64,000 nucleotides of DNA, taken from contig JAGFXR010000005.1 in the NCBI GenBank assembly GCA_017861365.1, forward strand, positions 1 to 64,000, read 5' to 3'. A program made the translations under genes and the position numbers. Origin of the DNA: Oscillospiraceae bacterium. Its GTDB lineage: Bacteria > Bacillota > Clostridia > Oscillospirales > Oscillospiraceae. The notes below the pieces were generated by a model. The model was given only the letters and a program-made list of their open reading frames with translations, was not told the origin of the DNA and did no database searches. Positions 10,348 to 17,466 of this stretch are shown piece after piece (within the stretch, counting starts at the first letter, position 1; each line of letters opens with the position of its first letter).

Positions 10348-10410
10348 GTGGTAACTGTAAGCTCTGATTGGGTCAGGTAAAGCTGCCGGATTTTAGAAAT
10401 CAATACGTTT

Positions 10411-10441
10411 GGGGGACGCCGCGAGGCGTCCTCCTTTTTTA
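10411..10441 (+). terminator. Rho-independent terminator of rpoBC
   Basis: A 10-bp stem pairs GGGGGACGCC with GGCGTCCTCC (one G-T pair) around a GCGA loop, followed by TTTTTT. It ends the rpoBC unit. Confidence 0.93.
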
Positions 10442-10628
10442 TGAGAGAGCCTGCGATAGCTGATGAGAATCTGACAGCAGCTTCCATGTTTGTAAAAGAC
10501 GGAAAGAATATAGAGGTGCGGTTGACTGTACGCCAGGCTGTGATATGATACTAAATAGTAAAAACACCAAAGCAACGCTTTATAGGTAATGGCGGGTGGA
10601 TTTGGAGTAAGCTGGAGGGGGAGCCAAC

Positions 10629-10985
10629 ATGACAATGGAACAGGTGCTGACTGTCGCGGGTGCGGACATCGGAGAAGTTTATGACCGATTTTGCGGTAAT
10701 GAGGCGGTATTAAAAAAGTACCTTTTGAGATTCTGCGAGGATGAGACTTATCGGCGGCTGGCGCTGCGGCTGAAAGAGCAGGACTGCGGGGCAATTGAAT
10801 TTGATGCTCATGCGCTGAAAGGGCTTTCAGCGACGTTGGGATTTCAGAAGCTCAGCGCAGCGTGCGGCGCGCTGACACTTGCGGCTCGAAACGGAGAGGT
10901 CAGTGGGTTGACTGTGCTTTTTGGACAGGTTGCCGAGGAATATGAGCACGTGGTTTCGGCCTTGCGACAGCTGGACGCGGACTGA
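10629..10985 (+). CDS. Hpt domain-containing phosphotransfer protein
   Basis: A 118-residue soluble protein with a histidine phosphotransfer motif, DAHALKGLSATLGF, in which H61 is the likely phosphorylated residue. Such proteins relay phosphate between receiver domains of hybrid kinases and response regulators. A GGAGGGGG-type ribosome binding site precedes the ATG. Only 33 bp separate it from the hybrid kinase gene downstream, whose receiver domain is an obvious partner, so the two probably form one operon and a phosphorelay (inference). The final output regulator is not evident nearby. Confidence 0.85.
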   Translation: MTMEQVLTVAGADIGEVYDRFCGNEAVLKKYLLRFCEDETYRRLALRLKEQDCGAIEFDAHALKGLSATLGFQKLSAACGALTLAARNGEVSGLTVLFGQVAEEYEHVVSALRQLDAD

Positions 10986-11018
10986 CGGGGATACGGTGCC
11001 GGGGAGAAAGGAGCACTT

Positions 11019-13637
11019 ATGAGGAGGCAGTTATTTGAACATAAGCCAAATCGGTTTAGCAGGCTTGTCAGTCACGGAGTTCCCGTTGTGGTTATTTTAC
11101 TTCTGATTTCCTACTGCTTCAGCATTTACTCGACGAACCTGAAATATGGGCAGATACAGTTCGGCGTGGAACAGTCAGTTGAATTTTTCAGGGAGATCAG
11201 TACGGTTCAATTTCTTATCATGCAAATGGAGCTGGATACGCAGAGGTGGTTTACTTGTAAAACTGACCATGCGGTAACACAGCAGGAGATAGAGGAAAAT
11301 TTCGGAGAACTGGATGATTCCATTGCAAAAATCAGTGCGGGAAGCGTGGGACAGGAGGATGCAATCGCAAGCTTAACATCAAGTTTAAATCAAATTAAAA
11401 AACTGCTCACGTCCTTTGCAGGGTTGTGTGAAAATAATACAAATGGGATGATGAATGTTCCGAACCAGGAAAAAGAACAGGTAGCGGACTTGTTTTTAAA
11501 GGCGCTTCAGGAAACCAGAACAATACAAATCAATTCGTCCTACCAGATTTCTGAGCACAGTGACAAAATTAAGCGGCTCAGTGAGCATACGCTGATATGG
11601 GCGGTGGTTCTGACAAGCCTTGTCTTCGTCACCACCGGGGCGCTTATGGTTCTGATCCGGATCAGCCAAAAAAAGTTGTATGCCCAGAGCAGATGGCTAA
11701 GTATGATTTCTGAGACTGTGGATGAAATGTTTATCATTGAGGATATGGACCGGAAATCCAGCGATTTTGTTTCAAAGGGCGCGGAGCGCATCCTTGGCAT
11801 TTCCTGCAGTGAGCTGATGGAGGAGAGCACGGCCTATACATGGCATCTTTCCATGGAGGATCGGGCCAAGCTTGCCTGGGAGCGGAGTACGGTCAGCGCG
11901 GGCGCACCCTTGGAGGTCAGAGTGGACTACACCTATCCCGTAACAGGGGCGAAGCGGCAGCTGTCTGTCGGTATGTATGTGGTGGAGGCGAAACGGGGAC
12001 GGAAAAAGAGAATTACCATGGTATCCGATATCACCCGGGACGCGGAGGTGCGGCGGAATCTAACCGAGGCGCTGGCGGCGGCACAAAAGGCCAATGAGGC
12101 GAAGCGGGATTTTCTCAGCCATATGAGCCATGAAATTCGAACGCCCATGAACGCGATTATCGGGATGACTGCCATTGCGTCCGCGTCGGTTCATAACCCG
12201 GCTCGCGTGGACGATTGCCTGAAAAAAATCTGCATCTCCTCAAAGCATTTGCTGATGCTGCTGAACAATATTCTTGACATGTCCAAAATCGAAAGCAATA
12301 AGCTGGTGCTCAACTGTGAGCCCTTTGATCTGATATTTTTCCTCAATACCTTTTCCTCGCTCAGCCGGGAGCAGTGCCTGGAAAAAGGCATTGCATTTGA
12401 TGAAAAACGATCCGGGTTTGAAGAAGACAGCTGGTATGTGGGAGATATGACCCGGGTGAACCAAATTTTACTAAATCTGATGTCAAACGCCACTAAATTT
12501 ACGGACGCCGGAGGGCAGGTCGCGTTTGAGGCAAGCCGCGTGGCGGAACACAGCGGAGTGGAGAAGGTCCGTTTTTCCGTGAGAGATACCGGAATCGGCA
12601 TGAGCGAGGCTGAATTGAGCCGGATGTTTCAGCCCTTTGAGCAGGCGGACAGCGCCATCAGCAGAAAATACGGCGGTACGGGTCTTGGGATGTCCATCAC
12701 CAAAAATTTAGTCTCCCTGATGGGAGGGTTCATTCAGGTAACCAGTCAACCAGGGGAGGGAACCTGCTGCGTGGTTGAGCTTCCCTTTGAAAAAGCGGAG
12801 CAGCGGGACAGGCCCCGCAAGGATCCAAAGAAGGGTTGGTTTCAACTGCTGGTGGTGGGGCAGAGCGGTGACACGCTGAGCCAAATGACTGGCGGTGAAG
12901 AAAAAATAAAAGTGGACTGGGCACAATCCGTGCACGAGGCAGTGCGGCTTGTCCGCAGCGCCGTCGCATCGGGAAAGCAGTACGACGCATGTTTGATTGA
13001 CTGCACCGTGCCCAAACGCGACGTGGCAGAGCTTGCCGGACAATTCGGTCAGGACAGCCCATACCGCATTCCGCTGATCCTCCTTTCAAACAACTGCGGC
13101 AGGGAGGCGGAAGTGCCAAAGGGAGAAACGTGCGTCAGCGCACAGCTTCTCAAACCGATTGCCATGGACACTCTGTGTAATCTCCTGATTGCGGTCACCG
13201 GAAAGACCGGTTTTTCGGCTCAGCGGCGGACGGGGCCTGAGTTTCTGAAAGGAAAGCGTCTGCTGGTGGCGGAGGATAACCCGCTGAATTTGGAAATTAC
13301 GCAGGAGCTGCTGCGCATGAACGGTCTGTTCGCCGAGGGGGCAAAGGATGGTGCGGAGGCGGTGGAGCGGTTCCTCCGGAGTGAAGCTGGTTACTATGAC
13401 GCCCTTTTAATGGATATTCAAATGCCCGGAATGGACGGTTACGCCGCAACCAGGGCAATTCGCGCATCAATTCATCCCGATGGAAAGACTGTACCCATCA
13501 TAGCGATTACCGCCAACGCGTTCAGTGACGATGTATCCGCCGCGCTGGCCGCCGGAATGAACGCCCATGTAAGCAAGCCGCTGAATGTGCCCGATCTGCT
13601 GGCTGTGCTGGAGGAGCTGACACAAAAGCCCGAATAG
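11019..13637 (+). CDS. Hybrid sensor histidine kinase with C-terminal receiver domains
   Basis: An 872-residue membrane kinase. Membrane segments at about 20-38 and 190-213 flank an extracellular helical sensor region of about 150 residues. A PAS-like segment (about 225-330) follows. The HisKA box SHEIRTPMNAIIGM holds the phospho-acceptor H371, and the ATPase domain shows NLMSNATKF, DTGIGMS and GGTGLGMS. The segment around 605-725 looks like a degenerate receiver: it lacks the N-terminal acidic pair but keeps CLIDCTVPK. A complete receiver follows with acidic residues VAEDNPLN and phospho-acceptor D799 in LLMDIQMPGMDG. The signal sensed is unknown. It is partnered with the Hpt protein immediately upstream and ends at a terminator. 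Confidence 0.93.
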   Translation: MRRQLFEHKPNRFSRLVSHGVPVVVILLLISYCFSIYSTNLKYGQIQFGVEQSVEFFREISTVQFLIMQMELDTQRWFTCKTDHAVTQQEIEENFGELDDSIAKISAGSVGQEDAIASLTSSLNQIKKLLTSFAGLCENNTNGMMNVPNQEKEQVADLFLKALQETRTIQINSSYQISEHSDKIKRLSEHTLIWAVVLTSLVFVTTGALMVLIRISQKKLYAQSRWLSMISETVDEMFIIEDMDRKSSDFVSKGAERILGISCSELMEESTAYTWHLSMEDRAKLAWERSTVSAGAPLEVRVDYTYPVTGAKRQLSVGMYVVEAKRGRKKRITMVSDITRDAEVRRNLTEALAAAQKANEAKRDFLSHMSHEIRTPMNAIIGMTAIASASVHNPARVDDCLKKICISSKHLLMLLNNILDMSKIESNKLVLNCEPFDLIFFLNTFSSLSREQCLEKGIAFDEKRSGFEEDSWYVGDMTRVNQILLNLMSNATKFTDAGGQVAFEASRVAEHSGVEKVRFSVRDTGIGMSEAELSRMFQPFEQADSAISRKYGGTGLGMSITKNLVSLMGGFIQVTSQPGEGTCCVVELPFEKAEQRDRPRKDPKKGWFQLLVVGQSGDTLSQMTGGEEKIKVDWAQSVHEAVRLVRSAVASGKQYDACLIDCTVPKRDVAELAGQFGQDSPYRIPLILLSNNCGREAEVPKGETCVSAQLLKPIAMDTLCNLLIAVTGKTGFSAQRRTGPEFLKGKRLLVAEDNPLNLEITQELLRMNGLFAEGAKDGAEAVERFLRSEAGYYDALLMDIQMPGMDGYAATRAIRASIHPDGKTVPIIAITANAFSDDVSAALAAGMNAHVSKPLNVPDLLAVLEELTQKPE

Positions 13638-13683
13638 CCGTGTGGTATTTCCACAAGGCCGGAACAGCTGGAAAAGCCGGTCG

Positions 13684-13723
13684 CACCCGACTCCACCGCA
13701 AAAGCGGCGAGTCGGGTGTTTTT
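13684..13723 (+). terminator. Rho-independent terminator after the hybrid kinase gene
   Basis: CACCCGACTC (13684-13693) pairs perfectly with GAGTCGGGTG (13709-13718), and CCGC/GCGG extends the stem inside around AAAA. TTTTT follows at 13719. Confidence 0.9.
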
Positions 13724-13753
13724 GATATACCGCCGGCGGCGCGGTATATCAAA
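13721..13753. repeat. Perfect 13-bp inverted repeat
   Basis: TTTGATATACCGC (13721-13733) and GCGGTATATCAAA (13741-13753) are exact reverse complements around a 7-bp GC-rich loop. It immediately follows the terminator and shares its T tract. It could act as a bidirectional terminator or be one copy of a dispersed palindromic repeat. I see no second copy in this window. Confidence 0.7.
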
Positions 13754-13872
13754 TTAGCAGTTATCCGCTGAAGCTGCTTCCGCAGCCCTGTTTTGTTGTG
13801 CACGCGTTTATTTACAAACCGTTCATCCTTTCTGCATCTATCTACCACAGGCGGGCGTTAAGCTGTGGCCAG

Positions 13873-13890
13873 ACAATCAAACTTGATTGT
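13873..13890. promoter_or_regulatory. Candidate operator palindrome upstream of the secreted protein gene
   Basis: ACAATCAA (13873-13880) and TTGATTGT (13883-13890) form an 8-bp perfect inverted repeat with a 2-bp spacer, 37 bp before the ATG. A TATAAA lies at 13900-13905. The size and symmetry suit a dimeric regulator, but no regulator can be assigned. Confidence 0.35.
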
Positions 13891-13926
13891 TGCTCGGAAT
13901 ATAAAACATCAAAAGGAGATATTATT

Positions 13927-14841
13927 ATGAAAAAGAATTTAAAGACAGCAGCAGCCGGACTCATGGCAGTAACAATATTGGCAGCCGGAGCCGGAGCGTC
14001 GGCATCCGCCGCCAGTGTGAGTGTGGCTGTCACCGGAAAGCAGACCACTCAGGCCTCACAGTGCACCTCCTCCACGCTGGAGAGCTTAAGCCTGACTGAG
14101 CTGGAGACTCTCGTCAACAGCCAGTCCAGCTCCGATACCAAGACACAGGCGCTGGAGCTCCTGGAAGACTATGAAACCAAAAATGACGCGATTGACACGG
14201 CGCAGGATAATCTGGTCACGGCGCTGGAGAAATACGGCATTACGGATTATCTGACCGACGGCAGCCTTGACACAGCGAAAATTCAGACAGCCATCAGCAG
14301 CCTGAAGGATACGACTGGCAATACGGCGCTGACCGCTCTGTTCAAAAAGTACAGCAGTGCCGTGGAAGCGGGTTCCGAGGCCAAGACCGCTTTCTTCCAG
14401 GCCGTTGAAAACGCAGGTTACAGTAATCAAACAGCGGCCTCTCAGGCGTCGCAGTCGGTTACCGTCAATCTTTCAAAGCTGTCTGTGACAGAGCTGGAAT
14501 CCCTGATTAACAGCCAGGCCAGCTCCGATACCAGGAAGCAGATTCTCAGCCTGCTGGCTGATTATAAGACCAAGGAAGCGGCTGTTACCACCGCCGAGAA
14601 GGCTCTCACGACCGCGCTGGAGAAGTACGGTGTCAAGGATTACGAAACCAACGGCGAACTTGACACGGCAAAGGTGAAGAGTGCCATCAGCGGACTGAAG
14701 GATCAGAGCGCGGCCAGCAATCTAACTGCCCTGCTCACCAGCTACAACAAGGCCGTGACCGCGAGAGATACCGCTAAAACCGCGCTCATCACCGCCATGG
14801 AAGCGGCAGGTTACAATAAAAAGACGGTAACAGCGGCCTGA
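13927..14841 (+). CDS. Secreted protein with two tandem helical repeats, function unknown
   Basis: A 304-residue protein with a clear signal peptide (KK at the start, hydrophobic core, probable cleavage after ASASA near residue 28). The mature part is two homologous units of about 115-120 residues. Each begins S-x-TELE-x-L-x-NSQ-x-SSDT, carries TALEKYG-x-x-DY near the middle, then an LDTAK motif, and ends with an ENAGY or EAAGY segment. Sequence is rich in Ala, Thr, Leu, Lys and Asp with no aromatic core, suggesting helical bundles. No cysteine pair, enzyme motif, anchor or LPXTG is visible. AAAAGGAG precedes the ATG at 13927; the frame is open further upstream but lacks a better start. It sits between two sensor-kinase units and has its own terminator. 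I do not recognise the family. Confidence 0.85.
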   Translation: MKKNLKTAAAGLMAVTILAAGAGASASAASVSVAVTGKQTTQASQCTSSTLESLSLTELETLVNSQSSSDTKTQALELLEDYETKNDAIDTAQDNLVTALEKYGITDYLTDGSLDTAKIQTAISSLKDTTGNTALTALFKKYSSAVEAGSEAKTAFFQAVENAGYSNQTAASQASQSVTVNLSKLSVTELESLINSQASSDTRKQILSLLADYKTKEAAVTTAEKALTTALEKYGVKDYETNGELDTAKVKSAISGLKDQSAASNLTALLTSYNKAVTARDTAKTALITAMEAAGYNKKTVTAA

Positions 14842-14923
14842 ACCGTCCCATCCCTGTTATACACCTGCCTTTCTCTGACCGAAGGGACTGAGCGGGATGC
14901 TGCTGGAACAAGTTTGAAAAGGC

Positions 14924-14968
14924 AAAAGATCATCCCGCGCGCTGTGAACGGCGGCGGGATGATCTTTT
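14924..14968 (+). terminator. Rho-independent terminator after the secreted protein gene
   Basis: AAAAGATCATCCCGC (14924-14938) pairs perfectly over 15 bp with GCGGGATGATCTTTT (14954-14968), followed by one more T. The remaining 180 bp before the response regulator hold no gene I can support. Confidence 0.88.
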
Positions 14969-15148
14969 TGCATCACCGCGCCAGGAAGCGGTCACAGAAA
15001 ATTCATAATTGTTTATGGATGAAACCCCAAAAAAGAATGGAACCTAAGCGAATAAATAATAAAAGGAGAGCAGTTCCTCAGGCATATCGCGATTGCACCG
15101 GCTGAGGACGGCAATCAACAACTGAAAGAATAGATGTGAGGTAATAAC

Positions 15149-15817
15149 ATGCTGAAAGTTTTAGTTGCGGATGACGACGAGCTCATAAGGGAGATGGTTG
15201 TGAAATATGGAAGAAACGAAGGCTTTGAAGTGACGGAGGCCTCTAATGGCGCGCAGGCCATAGAGCGCTGTGAGGAGTGTGATTTTGATGTGATTTTGTT
15301 GGACGTCATGATGCCAAAGCTGGATGGATTCTCGGCCTGCCGGGAAATCAGAAAAATCAGGGCTACGCCTATTATTATGCTGTCGGCTCTGGGTGAGGAA
15401 TACGAGAAGCTGCACGGTTTTGACCTTGGTATCAGCGACTATATTGTCAAACCGTTTTCCTTTAAAGAATTGATGATGCGCATTAAAGCGGTTTCCAGGC
15501 TGATGACGGGCAACAGGGACACCATCGTAATTGGGGAGCTCAAGATTGACCTGATCGGCTGGTCGGTGCAGATTGGAACAGAGTTTTTGCAGCTGTCGCC
15601 CAAGGAGGCCGCGCTTCTTTTTTATATGGCGAAAAACAGCGGTATCGCGCTGACCCGAGAGAAGCTGATCTGCAATATCTGGGGCTATGACTATGACGGC
15701 AATGAAAGAACCCTTGACTCACATATCAAAGGGCTTCGGAAAAATCTGAGAGAGTACGGATGGTGTATTACGACGATTAAAGGGGTTGGTTATCGTTTTG
15801 ACGAAGAATCCAATTAA
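15149..15817 (+). CDS. OmpR/PhoB-type response regulator
   Basis: A 222-residue two-domain DNA-binding regulator. The receiver has acidic residues VADDDE near the start, phospho-acceptor D52 in LLDVMMPKLDGF, and the conserved Lys in YIVKPFSF. The winged-helix domain (from about 125) has LTREKLICNIWGYDYDGNERTLDSHIKGLRKNL and a terminal GVGYRF. GAGGT precedes the ATG. Its 3' end overlaps the following histidine kinase, so the two form a pair. Targets are not known; the secreted protein gene just upstream is a positional candidate only. Confidence 0.95.
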   Translation: MLKVLVADDDELIREMVVKYGRNEGFEVTEASNGAQAIERCEECDFDVILLDVMMPKLDGFSACREIRKIRATPIIMLSALGEEYEKLHGFDLGISDYIVKPFSFKELMMRIKAVSRLMTGNRDTIVIGELKIDLIGWSVQIGTEFLQLSPKEAALLFYMAKNSGIALTREKLICNIWGYDYDGNERTLDSHIKGLRKNLREYGWCITTIKGVGYRFDEESN

Positions 15818-17408
15818 GCTGCGGTGGAAGCTGTTCTGCTACATGGGGTTGTTCGTAGCAGGGATGCTGGGGGCGCTGTGGCTGTATCAGATGTTTTTTA
15901 TGCAGGATATGTTCCAAATGATCCGGACGGATGATTTAAACCAGGTGGCAAAGCAGGTCAAAACCATTTCATATGACGACCAGGATGCTGAGGAACAGCT
16001 TAACGAGATTGCGTTTGAAAACAATGTCTGCATTGTGGCCTGTGACTCCTCTGGGGCGACCCGGTATTCCGCAGGGCACGGCCCAAACTGCCTCATTCAC
16101 GACCTGACTGATGCATCTTTGATAGAACTGGCGGCCAATACCGACTTTAACGGGCAGAAGCCTGTGGATATCACATCGGAAGTGCAGACGCTGTTGGCGA
16201 AGGAAGAAGCTTCGTCCGCCGACTCAAGCGATTCAGAACAAACAAAGTCGGCAGGTGAAAGTTCAACTGCCGTCAGAGTGGTTATGGCCATGGAGACGGA
16301 TGAGGGAGTGGTTTTTCTCGACAGCTCCGCCCTAGCGCCCAATGTAACGCTGGATAATCTCTACACGGAACTGCTGTACGCAGGCGGGATTTTCCTGGTG
16401 CTCACTTTTTTGCTCACAACGCTGATTTCAAAAGGAATTTCAAAGCCCATCAAGGAAATTAACGACAAAGCCCACGCGCTTTCCAGCGGTCATTTTGACG
16501 TAGAGTTTGACAGCCGGGGATATCTGGAGATTACGCAGCTGAGTGAAACTCTTAATTATATGGTGGGAGAGTTCAGGCAATTTGAAACCCTGCGCCAGAA
16601 CCTCATCGCGGATGTGTCTCACGATTTGCGAACACCCCTGACCGCTATTCTCAGCCGATGCGAGCTCACCCTTGATTTTCCGGAGGAGGACGCGCGCAAA
16701 AACATCGAGATGATTTACGAAGAGGCGCGGTGGATGTCTGATCTGGTCAACAATTTGCTGAAAATATCAAAGCTGCGGACCAATTTCAGCGATGTTGACA
16801 CCGTCCGGTTTAACCTCACCGATGAGATGGAGGGGATTCTGCGGCGGTTTGAGCGGTTTTATCAAAAAGACGGTTACCAGTTTGAGTTTTATTATGATAA
16901 GTCGGTGTTTGTGCGCGCAGATAAAGTCCGCATCTGCCAGGTCATCTATAACTTCATTCATAATGCCGTCAAGCATGCTGGAGCCGAGCGAAATGTGGTG
17001 GTCAGCCAGATCATATATGACGGGGAGGCGGTAATACGGGTCCACAGTTTTGGGGAGACCATTCCGCCGGAGCGTCTGCGGTACATCTGGGATCGGTTTT
17101 ACCAGGCGAACCAGAACCCGGAGGATGGGGAAAACGGGATGGGCCTGGGGCTTTCCATCGTGAAAAGCATTTTAGAGGTTCACCACGCCCGGTACGGAGT
17201 GGAAAACTGCGGCCATGACGGCTGCGTCTTCTGGTTTGCGCTCAATACCGACGGAGAGGCGGCGCAGGCGGAATCCGAACCGGGAGCGGGTGCGCGGCAT
17301 TTCAACAGGAAAAGCAAGTGCGGCGAGAAGGCGGGGGAAGGAGATAAGGGCAAAAAGGTGAAGCATAAACAATTAAAACTAAAAGAGGAAAAAACCATTG
17401 ACGAATAA
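15798..17408 (+). CDS. Sensor histidine kinase, partner of the preceding regulator
   Basis: A membrane kinase of about 536 residues. The start is uncertain: TTG at 15786 or 15798, both overlapping the regulator gene and following AAAGGGG; I chose 15798. One membrane segment near the N-terminus and a second around residue 192-212 enclose an extracellular sensor region of about 155 residues with a Ser/Glu-rich loop. HAMP follows, then HisKA with H275 in ADVSHDLRTPLTAIL, and an ATPase domain with NFIHNAVKHA and GMGLGLSIVKSI. The last 60 or so residues form an unusual Lys-rich tail with no domain match that I know. The promoter for the next operon overlaps its stop codon. Confidence 0.9.
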   Translation: MTKNPIKLRWKLFCYMGLFVAGMLGALWLYQMFFMQDMFQMIRTDDLNQVAKQVKTISYDDQDAEEQLNEIAFENNVCIVACDSSGATRYSAGHGPNCLIHDLTDASLIELAANTDFNGQKPVDITSEVQTLLAKEEASSADSSDSEQTKSAGESSTAVRVVMAMETDEGVVFLDSSALAPNVTLDNLYTELLYAGGIFLVLTFLLTTLISKGISKPIKEINDKAHALSSGHFDVEFDSRGYLEITQLSETLNYMVGEFRQFETLRQNLIADVSHDLRTPLTAILSRCELTLDFPEEDARKNIEMIYEEARWMSDLVNNLLKISKLRTNFSDVDTVRFNLTDEMEGILRRFERFYQKDGYQFEFYYDKSVFVRADKVRICQVIYNFIHNAVKHAGAERNVVVSQIIYDGEAVIRVHSFGETIPPERLRYIWDRFYQANQNPEDGENGMGLGLSIVKSILEVHHARYGVENCGHDGCVFWFALNTDGEAAQAESEPGAGARHFNRKSKCGEKAGEGDKGKKVKHKQLKLKEEKTIDE

Positions 17409-17426
17409 AGGATATTATGCTATAAT
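17398..17426 (+). promoter_or_regulatory. SigA promoter for the L7Ae-like/str operon
   Basis: TTGACG (17398-17403) and perfect TATAAT (17421-17426) have a 17-bp spacer. The -35 overlaps the last codons of the upstream kinase gene. The first gene downstream starts at 17467. Confidence 0.8.
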
Positions 17427-17466
17427 CCTTACTTGTGTCGATATGTCCTGAGAGGAGGTCGTTTTT

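Follow-up and report, generated by a model that had tools for sequence, protein, structure and literature searches.

An exported helical-repeat protein encoded between kinase genes in an Oscillospiraceae bacterium may belong to a sigI-associated family

What does a secreted protein of no known family do when its gene stands between two sets of kinase genes? In a gut-type Oscillospiraceae bacterium (assembly GCA_017861365.1, contig JAGFXR010000005.1; the whole stretch of 64,000 nucleotides analyzed is called the window), such a gene lies between a hybrid kinase gene and a two-component pair, and a sequence-only reading had suggested that its product may be a regulated target, a ligand-binding protein or a surface protein. 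Here, we compared the gene with its paralogue and distant relatives, and found that its kinase neighbors are most likely incidental and that the protein may belong to a family encoded elsewhere beside sigI.

A gene bounded by terminators

The open reading frame, which encodes 304 aa, is a genuine gene, with AAAAGGAG just upstream of its ATG; the earliest start listed for the frame is an in-frame GTG at 13798. The gene and its boundaries are as follows:

13683..13719, forward strand: terminator after the hybrid kinase gene, separating it from the secreted gene (fold of 13680-13730)
13927..14841, forward strand: coding sequence of the secreted helical-repeat protein (304-aa ORF with a paralogue in the host genome)
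13927..14013, forward strand: signal peptide, about residues 1-29 (inspection and hydropathy)
14922..14971, forward strand: intrinsic terminator 3' of the secreted gene (fold of 14912-14975)

The claim that the protein is exported agreed with both inspection and hydropathy: a lysine-rich start is followed by a hydrophobic core and by A-S-A-S-A-A, and the maximum hydropathy over 19 residues was 1.67 in the N terminus versus 0.52 elsewhere in the protein. Neither a lipobox Cys, nor LPXTG, nor a C-terminal or second hydrophobic stretch was seen in the translation, and no wall anchor appeared there or in Pfam and NCBIfam, as had been stated before. The mature part is rich in Ala, Thr, Ser, and Leu, with no proline, no tryptophan, and a single cysteine, and has a computed pI of 4.8.

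Region 14912-14975 folded at -36.1 kcal/mol (z -6.84, none of 200 shuffles as good), which bears out the earlier view that the gene has its own terminator, and region 13680-13730 folded at -27.7 kcal/mol (z -6.30, again 0/200). Both stem-loops carry T-tails. Set between these two strong terminators, the gene probably forms a transcription unit of its own. A generic promoter scan returned 12 sigma-70-like sites, compared to 6.2 expected, none of them directly 5' of the secreted gene.

Four half-repeats in A-B-A-B order

The protein had been described as two homologous helical units. This stood, as the tandem units of about 115 residues (14071-14442 and 14458-14838) are 54% identical and were modeled as helical, but the description needs correction in that each unit consists of two half-repeats of about 52 residues, which can be aligned gap-free across 52 columns. 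The whole protein is therefore built as A-B-A-B (boundaries from the half-repeat alignment and tree):

14083..14241, forward strand: half-repeat 1A
14260..14436, forward strand: half-repeat 1B
14476..14634, forward strand: half-repeat 2A
14653..14826, forward strand: half-repeat 2B

The likeness between halves was clearest for 2A and 2B (score 60, z 5.7, 0/500 shuffles), followed by 1A and 1B (score 44, z 3.6, 1/500), and was weaker for 1B and 2A (z 2.3, 19/500); the A and B halves of the paralogue also formed a weak pair (z 3.5, 3/500). A tree built from 11 half-units placed the A halves in one group (support 99/97) and the B halves in another (86/92), while most other inner branches were poorly supported. 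This separate grouping indicates that A and B were joined before the paralogues split. We infer from this tree that A and B would have joined first, that the paralogues then split, and that the window copy doubled its A-B pair last.

A single unit, modeled alone with AlphaFold2 from a single sequence, reached a pLDDT of 91.4 and a pTM of 0.81, with helices in the order short-long-short-long and the two long helices capped by the two short ones. The full 304-aa model, likewise from a single sequence, scored lower (pLDDT 77.6, pTM 0.42) and placed helices at residues 56-64, 69-102, 116-125, 129-163, 187-195, 201-233, 247-255, and 260-293.

No close match among known families or folds

The absence of a known family was confirmed by profile comparisons, in which the window protein stayed below the curated cut-off of every Pfam and NCBIfam model. 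The nearest Pfam model, DUF1722 (PF08349), scored 22.4 bits against a gathering cut-off of 22.5 (residues 194-238, E 1.5e-4); the match covers one 45-residue stretch only, half-repeat 2A and its tail, and there was none in the paralogue at E <= 1. The best E-values were 0.002 in PHROGs and 3e-4 in PADLOC (JetD). Since the sequence is helical and compositionally biased, we read these scattered weak matches in Pfam, NCBIfam, PHROGs, and PADLOC as chance. FIVAR, GA, and protein-A-type surface modules gave no match at E <= 1 in Pfam or NCBIfam, and sequence searches of the PDB returned at best a weak match to a protein-A fusion (E 0.28) and, in the other search, 0.33. The literature search found no named family of such secreted repeat proteins. 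The best reading is that the window protein belongs to an undescribed helical family.

In structure searches with one unit as the query, the best Foldseek match in the PDB had an E of 0.30 (none <= 0.001), and the best VIA match was a BAR domain (Z 8.7, rmsd 4.0, 104 aligned); the top VIA rows were BAR domains, the vinculin tail, and efflux-pump hairpins, which, as the tool itself warns, may reflect a common arrangement only. For the full model, the best values were a Foldseek E of 0.56 and a Z of 8.2, with no PDB match at E <= 0.001, and the viral structure library held no match at <= 0.001. The helical wall-hydrolase regulators RipA/SteB and EnvC were matched with probabilities of 0.97, 0.75, and 0.75, yet with E-values of 0.32 to 1.4, and their possible structural kinship is a lead only.

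The periplasmic helical proteins CpxP, Spy, and ZraP resemble the window protein in being small, exported, helical, and tied to envelope signaling. ZraP (3lay) was in the match list of the full model (Z 6.0, rmsd 2.9, 76 aligned), among unrelated helical rows, and a Z near 6.0 is common for helical models. LTxxQ is the motif of CpxP/Spy proteins; it is absent from the 304-aa translation, and the hosts here are, in contrast, of Gram-positive type.

A paralogue with a common upstream block

Within the 26 contigs of the host genome, which is 74% complete, we found one paralogue, with 45% identity (E 9.2e-27). It has 194 aa, a signal peptide by eye, a T/Q-rich linker, and a single A-B unit. Its gene (L011:9554-10138) lies just 3' of a serine recombinase gene that looks full-length (L011:7686-9143, by eye), and the neighborhood includes, also by eye, genes for S-layer-homology, MacA/MacB-like, LysM, and C39-like proteins. 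The two genes have an upstream block in common:

13807..13878, forward strand: block common to the window gene and the paralogue, about 72 bp, found by alignment (paralogue counterpart L002:1191-1262)

The block carries a 30-bp pattern at 13811-13840, and CCAGACAATC stands at its end. Its alignment scored 17, compared to a shuffle mean of 9.8 (sd 1.3, maximum 16; 0/2000), and the runner-up within the window scored 15. Allowing up to 3 mismatches, the 30-bp pattern occurred at two places in the host assembly, both at the paralogue pair, and the reversed-pattern control at none. The block may be a common control element or a remnant of the duplication. No convincing match to it was found upstream of the Hpt, response-regulator, and L7Ae genes, where the best of 12 comparisons scored 13 (3/300 shuffles, on one strand only).

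Distant relatives adjoin sigI

Relatives were sought with profiles of only 55 to 56 positions, from sequences rich in A, T, L, and K. In the host and 59 relatives (60 genomes, none listed as of the same genus), only the host was found, plus a weak match in G054 (E 0.006) that we dropped as chance. Profile A2, from the host units only, matched the host and G104 among 394 genomes of the order, the latter twice within a single ORF (E 8.4e-8 and 2.2e-5); G104 is an Intestinibacillus massiliensis MAG of the family Butyricicoccaceae. Profile A3, from the half-units and G104, returned the same two in the order and, among 391 genomes of the class, the host, G639 (2.6e-6), and G586 (4.5e-5). With profile A4, G104 alone was found in 87 genomes of its family, and G639 and G984 (1.7e-8) in 150 genomes of the family of G639. 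Profile A5 returned the host, G639, and four weak matches from the same 391 class genomes. Searching a genome-contig collection with the G104 protein matched only its own contig, and no relative was found in genome contigs (profile A2), viral contigs, plasmids, or phages. We accepted three relatives from the profile searches, G104, G639, and G984, and the relatives cover few loci, in three genera besides the host.

Several candidates were set aside. The G586 ORF (8.3e-6 with A5) resembles a sugar-binding protein, and those of G671, G700, and G434 (E 4e-4 to 6e-3, A5) are large or unrelated; the surrounding DNA available for the weak matches examined contained no sigI. As an ORF that looks unrelated, such as that of G586, can reach 8.3e-6, single E-values near 1e-5 prove little. 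Designed alphaRep chains matched profile A5 down to 9e-11 and were rejected because that E is a sum over designed repeats; no stretch passed alone, the best covering 14 to 22 positions.

In all three accepted relatives, which were found without regard to sigI, the secreted gene directly adjoins a sigI gene: on the same strand after gaps of about 126 bp in G104 and about 45 bp in G984, and divergently in G639. The neighboring SigI-family proteins matched TIGR02895 at 8.9e-37 (G104), 4e-52 (G639), and 5.1e-47 (G984), all under its equivalog cut-off. The gene beyond sigI carries an RsgI_M domain in G104 and G639; that of G984 is cut by the contig end, has no Pfam match, and is RsgI-like by eye only. 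SigI and RsgI are described, in passages of PMC10575876 and PMC7478892, as an envelope or polysaccharide signaling pair, and part of PMC7478892 assigns sigma-I of B. subtilis a function in cell-envelope stress.

Of 80 genomes around G639 searched for sigI, 25 had a match, giving 29 loci. The helical protein was present at three of these loci (G639, G997, and G1023, of one genus and all divergent), and most sigI loci of the sample thus lack the family. As the G997 and G1023 loci were chosen by sigI, they are not counted for adjacency. With profile A6, from the host half-units only, the G1023, G639, and G997 proteins nevertheless ranked first to third of 522 ORFs (1.6e-7, 8.7e-5, and 4.9e-4; next ORF 0.79), and hhalign of the host half-units against the units of the relatives gave 97.2% and an E of 3.7e-11. 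The proteins of all five genomes have the half-repeat pattern of the window protein, L..LL..Y..A..A...A..AL..AL...G, in one or three copies where the host proteins have paired A-B units, and their units carry an insertion of about 16 to 19 residues. A signal peptide is apparent by eye, except that the G984 N terminus is cut by the contig end. The kinship of the window protein with these sigI-linked proteins is supported by profile evidence.

The host also has a sigI-like gene, whose product scores below the curated NCBIfam cut-off, and an RsgI_M gene (C26:127585). Neither the window gene nor the paralogue is on the contig that carries this pair, or adjoins sigI, and no helical-repeat gene was found beside the pair. 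As a candidate promoter, we used the pattern CCCC-N16-24-CGWA, which combines the CGWA -10 motif given in part of PMC10575876 with a CCCC seen upstream in the regions examined. It was absent 5' of the window gene, the paralogue, and the host sigI. Two of the 10 upstream regions scanned had it, those of the G104 secreted gene and G639 sigI, although it also arose in 7.4% of shuffled versions of the G104 region. In G639 and two congeners, the helical gene is preceded by CCCC-N20-AGAA, near but not identical to the pattern by eye.

The flanking kinases

The flanks consist, as first described, of a hybrid kinase and an OmpR-type regulator with a histidine kinase (all from Pfam):

10629-10985: Hpt
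11019-13637: hybrid kinase
15149-15817: OmpR-type regulator
15786-17408: histidine kinase

Together with the Hpt gene, these and the secreted gene form a cassette (10348-17466) inserted between rpoC and L7Ae-rpsL-rpsG-fusA-tuf. The end of rpoC lies within about 1.5 kb 5' of rpsL in 15 of the 24 relatives with rpsL, two of the other nine have unrelated genes further upstream by eye, and in none of the 24 was the window kinase present in the 1.5 kb or less examined. Using tblastn (E <= 1e-3) with the window kinase, regulator, and hybrid kinase as queries, we found no match around the paralogue (20 kb), G104 (13-20 kb), G639 (17 kb), or G984, G997, and G1023 (1.9-3.7 kb each). No two-component genes were thus detected in the stretches searched around the homologues, the very finding that had been named as refuting the first reading, and the kinase neighbors of the window gene are most likely incidental. 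That the upstream block was not clearly found 5' of the Hpt, response-regulator, and L7Ae genes also speaks against a tie to the kinases. The gene might nonetheless be a target of the neighboring regulator in this one species.

Weighing the explanations

The reading that we prefer, with a probability of roughly 0.45, is that the gene product is an exported, soluble, all-helical A-B-A-B protein of an undescribed sigI-associated family with a putative role at the envelope. Each A-B pair of its four half-repeats of about 52 residues would fold as a compact unit of two long helices and two short caps. The other accepted members lie directly beside sigI, with rsgI beyond; proteins of the family would be made upon sensing of an envelope signal and would function beyond the membrane, at the cell wall or surface, as binding or adaptor proteins. 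Ancestrally, the family may have been an output or partner of SigI/RsgI; in the host lineage it would have left the sigI locus and become two paralogues at separate places that share an upstream block, and the window copy would have doubled its A-B unit.

Lying between kinase units, the gene could encode a target of the flanking two-component system or of the hybrid kinase, or a ligand for either, and the upstream block begins with TTTACA-N5-TTCAT, which in our own reading resembles an 11-bp-spaced direct repeat of interest beside an OmpR-type regulator. Such a role seems improbable to us, considering that neither kinase nor regulator was matched around the paralogue or relatives, that terminators set the gene apart from the hybrid kinase and the regulator, that the block is not convincingly repeated 5' of the regulator, Hpt, and L7Ae genes, and that none of the 24 rpsL regions, of about 1.5 kb or less, contained the window kinase. 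We also regard it as unlikely that the protein belongs to the surface or matrix, as an adhesin-like or S-layer-associated component without a part in regulation: the product is exported, repeat-built, rich in Thr, Ser, and Ala, and free of proline in its mature part, and genes for S-layer-homology, LysM, and C39-like proteins neighbor the paralogue (by eye), but the product has no anchor or known wall-binding domain, and the sigI association of the relatives suggests a regulated envelope role.

The kinship itself could be a chance likeness of helix-rich, A/T-rich sequences, as the short profiles and the E of 8.3e-6 reached by the probably unrelated G586 ORF would allow. This is rather doubtful, given that host-only profiles put three sigI-neighbor proteins first among 522 ORFs and matched two places of one G104 ORF, and that all accepted relatives look secreted and adjoin sigI, while no sigI was present in the DNA available around the weak matches examined. 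A bolder idea than an exported envelope binding or adaptor protein is a secreted accessory regulator that would bind and tune an envelope sensor, be it RsgI or a kinase, as CpxP does CpxA, of which it is described as an accessory protein in part of PMC4160245. Small exported helical proteins beside sigI-rsgI in 3/3 accepted relatives fit this analogy, whereas the missing LTxxQ and the location of both host genes away from sigI-rsgI do not, and we consider it very unlikely. The furthest extension is a long shot: in Clostridia, the family would partner SigI/RsgI from outside the cytoplasm, corresponding in kind to CpxP but in Gram-positives, and in the window species it would have escaped the sigI locus, doubled its unit, and acquired a control element private to the two genes.

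On the preferred reading, a secreted family encoded beside sigI-rsgI would be a concrete, testable partner or output of that pair. A secreted protein between kinases would thereby be placed in a family, which points the way for experiments and offers an initial, testable clue to function, and the window case cautions against inferring function from kinase neighbors.

The secreted gene-sigI-rsgI set of G104 (L032:6001-12644) is convergent with tuf and fusA, and rpsL-fusA-tuf likewise stands a few kb away from the window gene, a likeness that may be coincidence. The G639 (L027:8436-9119, reverse strand) and G984 (L031:24-740) proteins have proline-rich linkers and a terminal short amphipathic helix that is absent from the window protein. 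Outside the membrane, the host RsgI (L023:2187-3506) extends into a long repetitive tail rich in Q and S.
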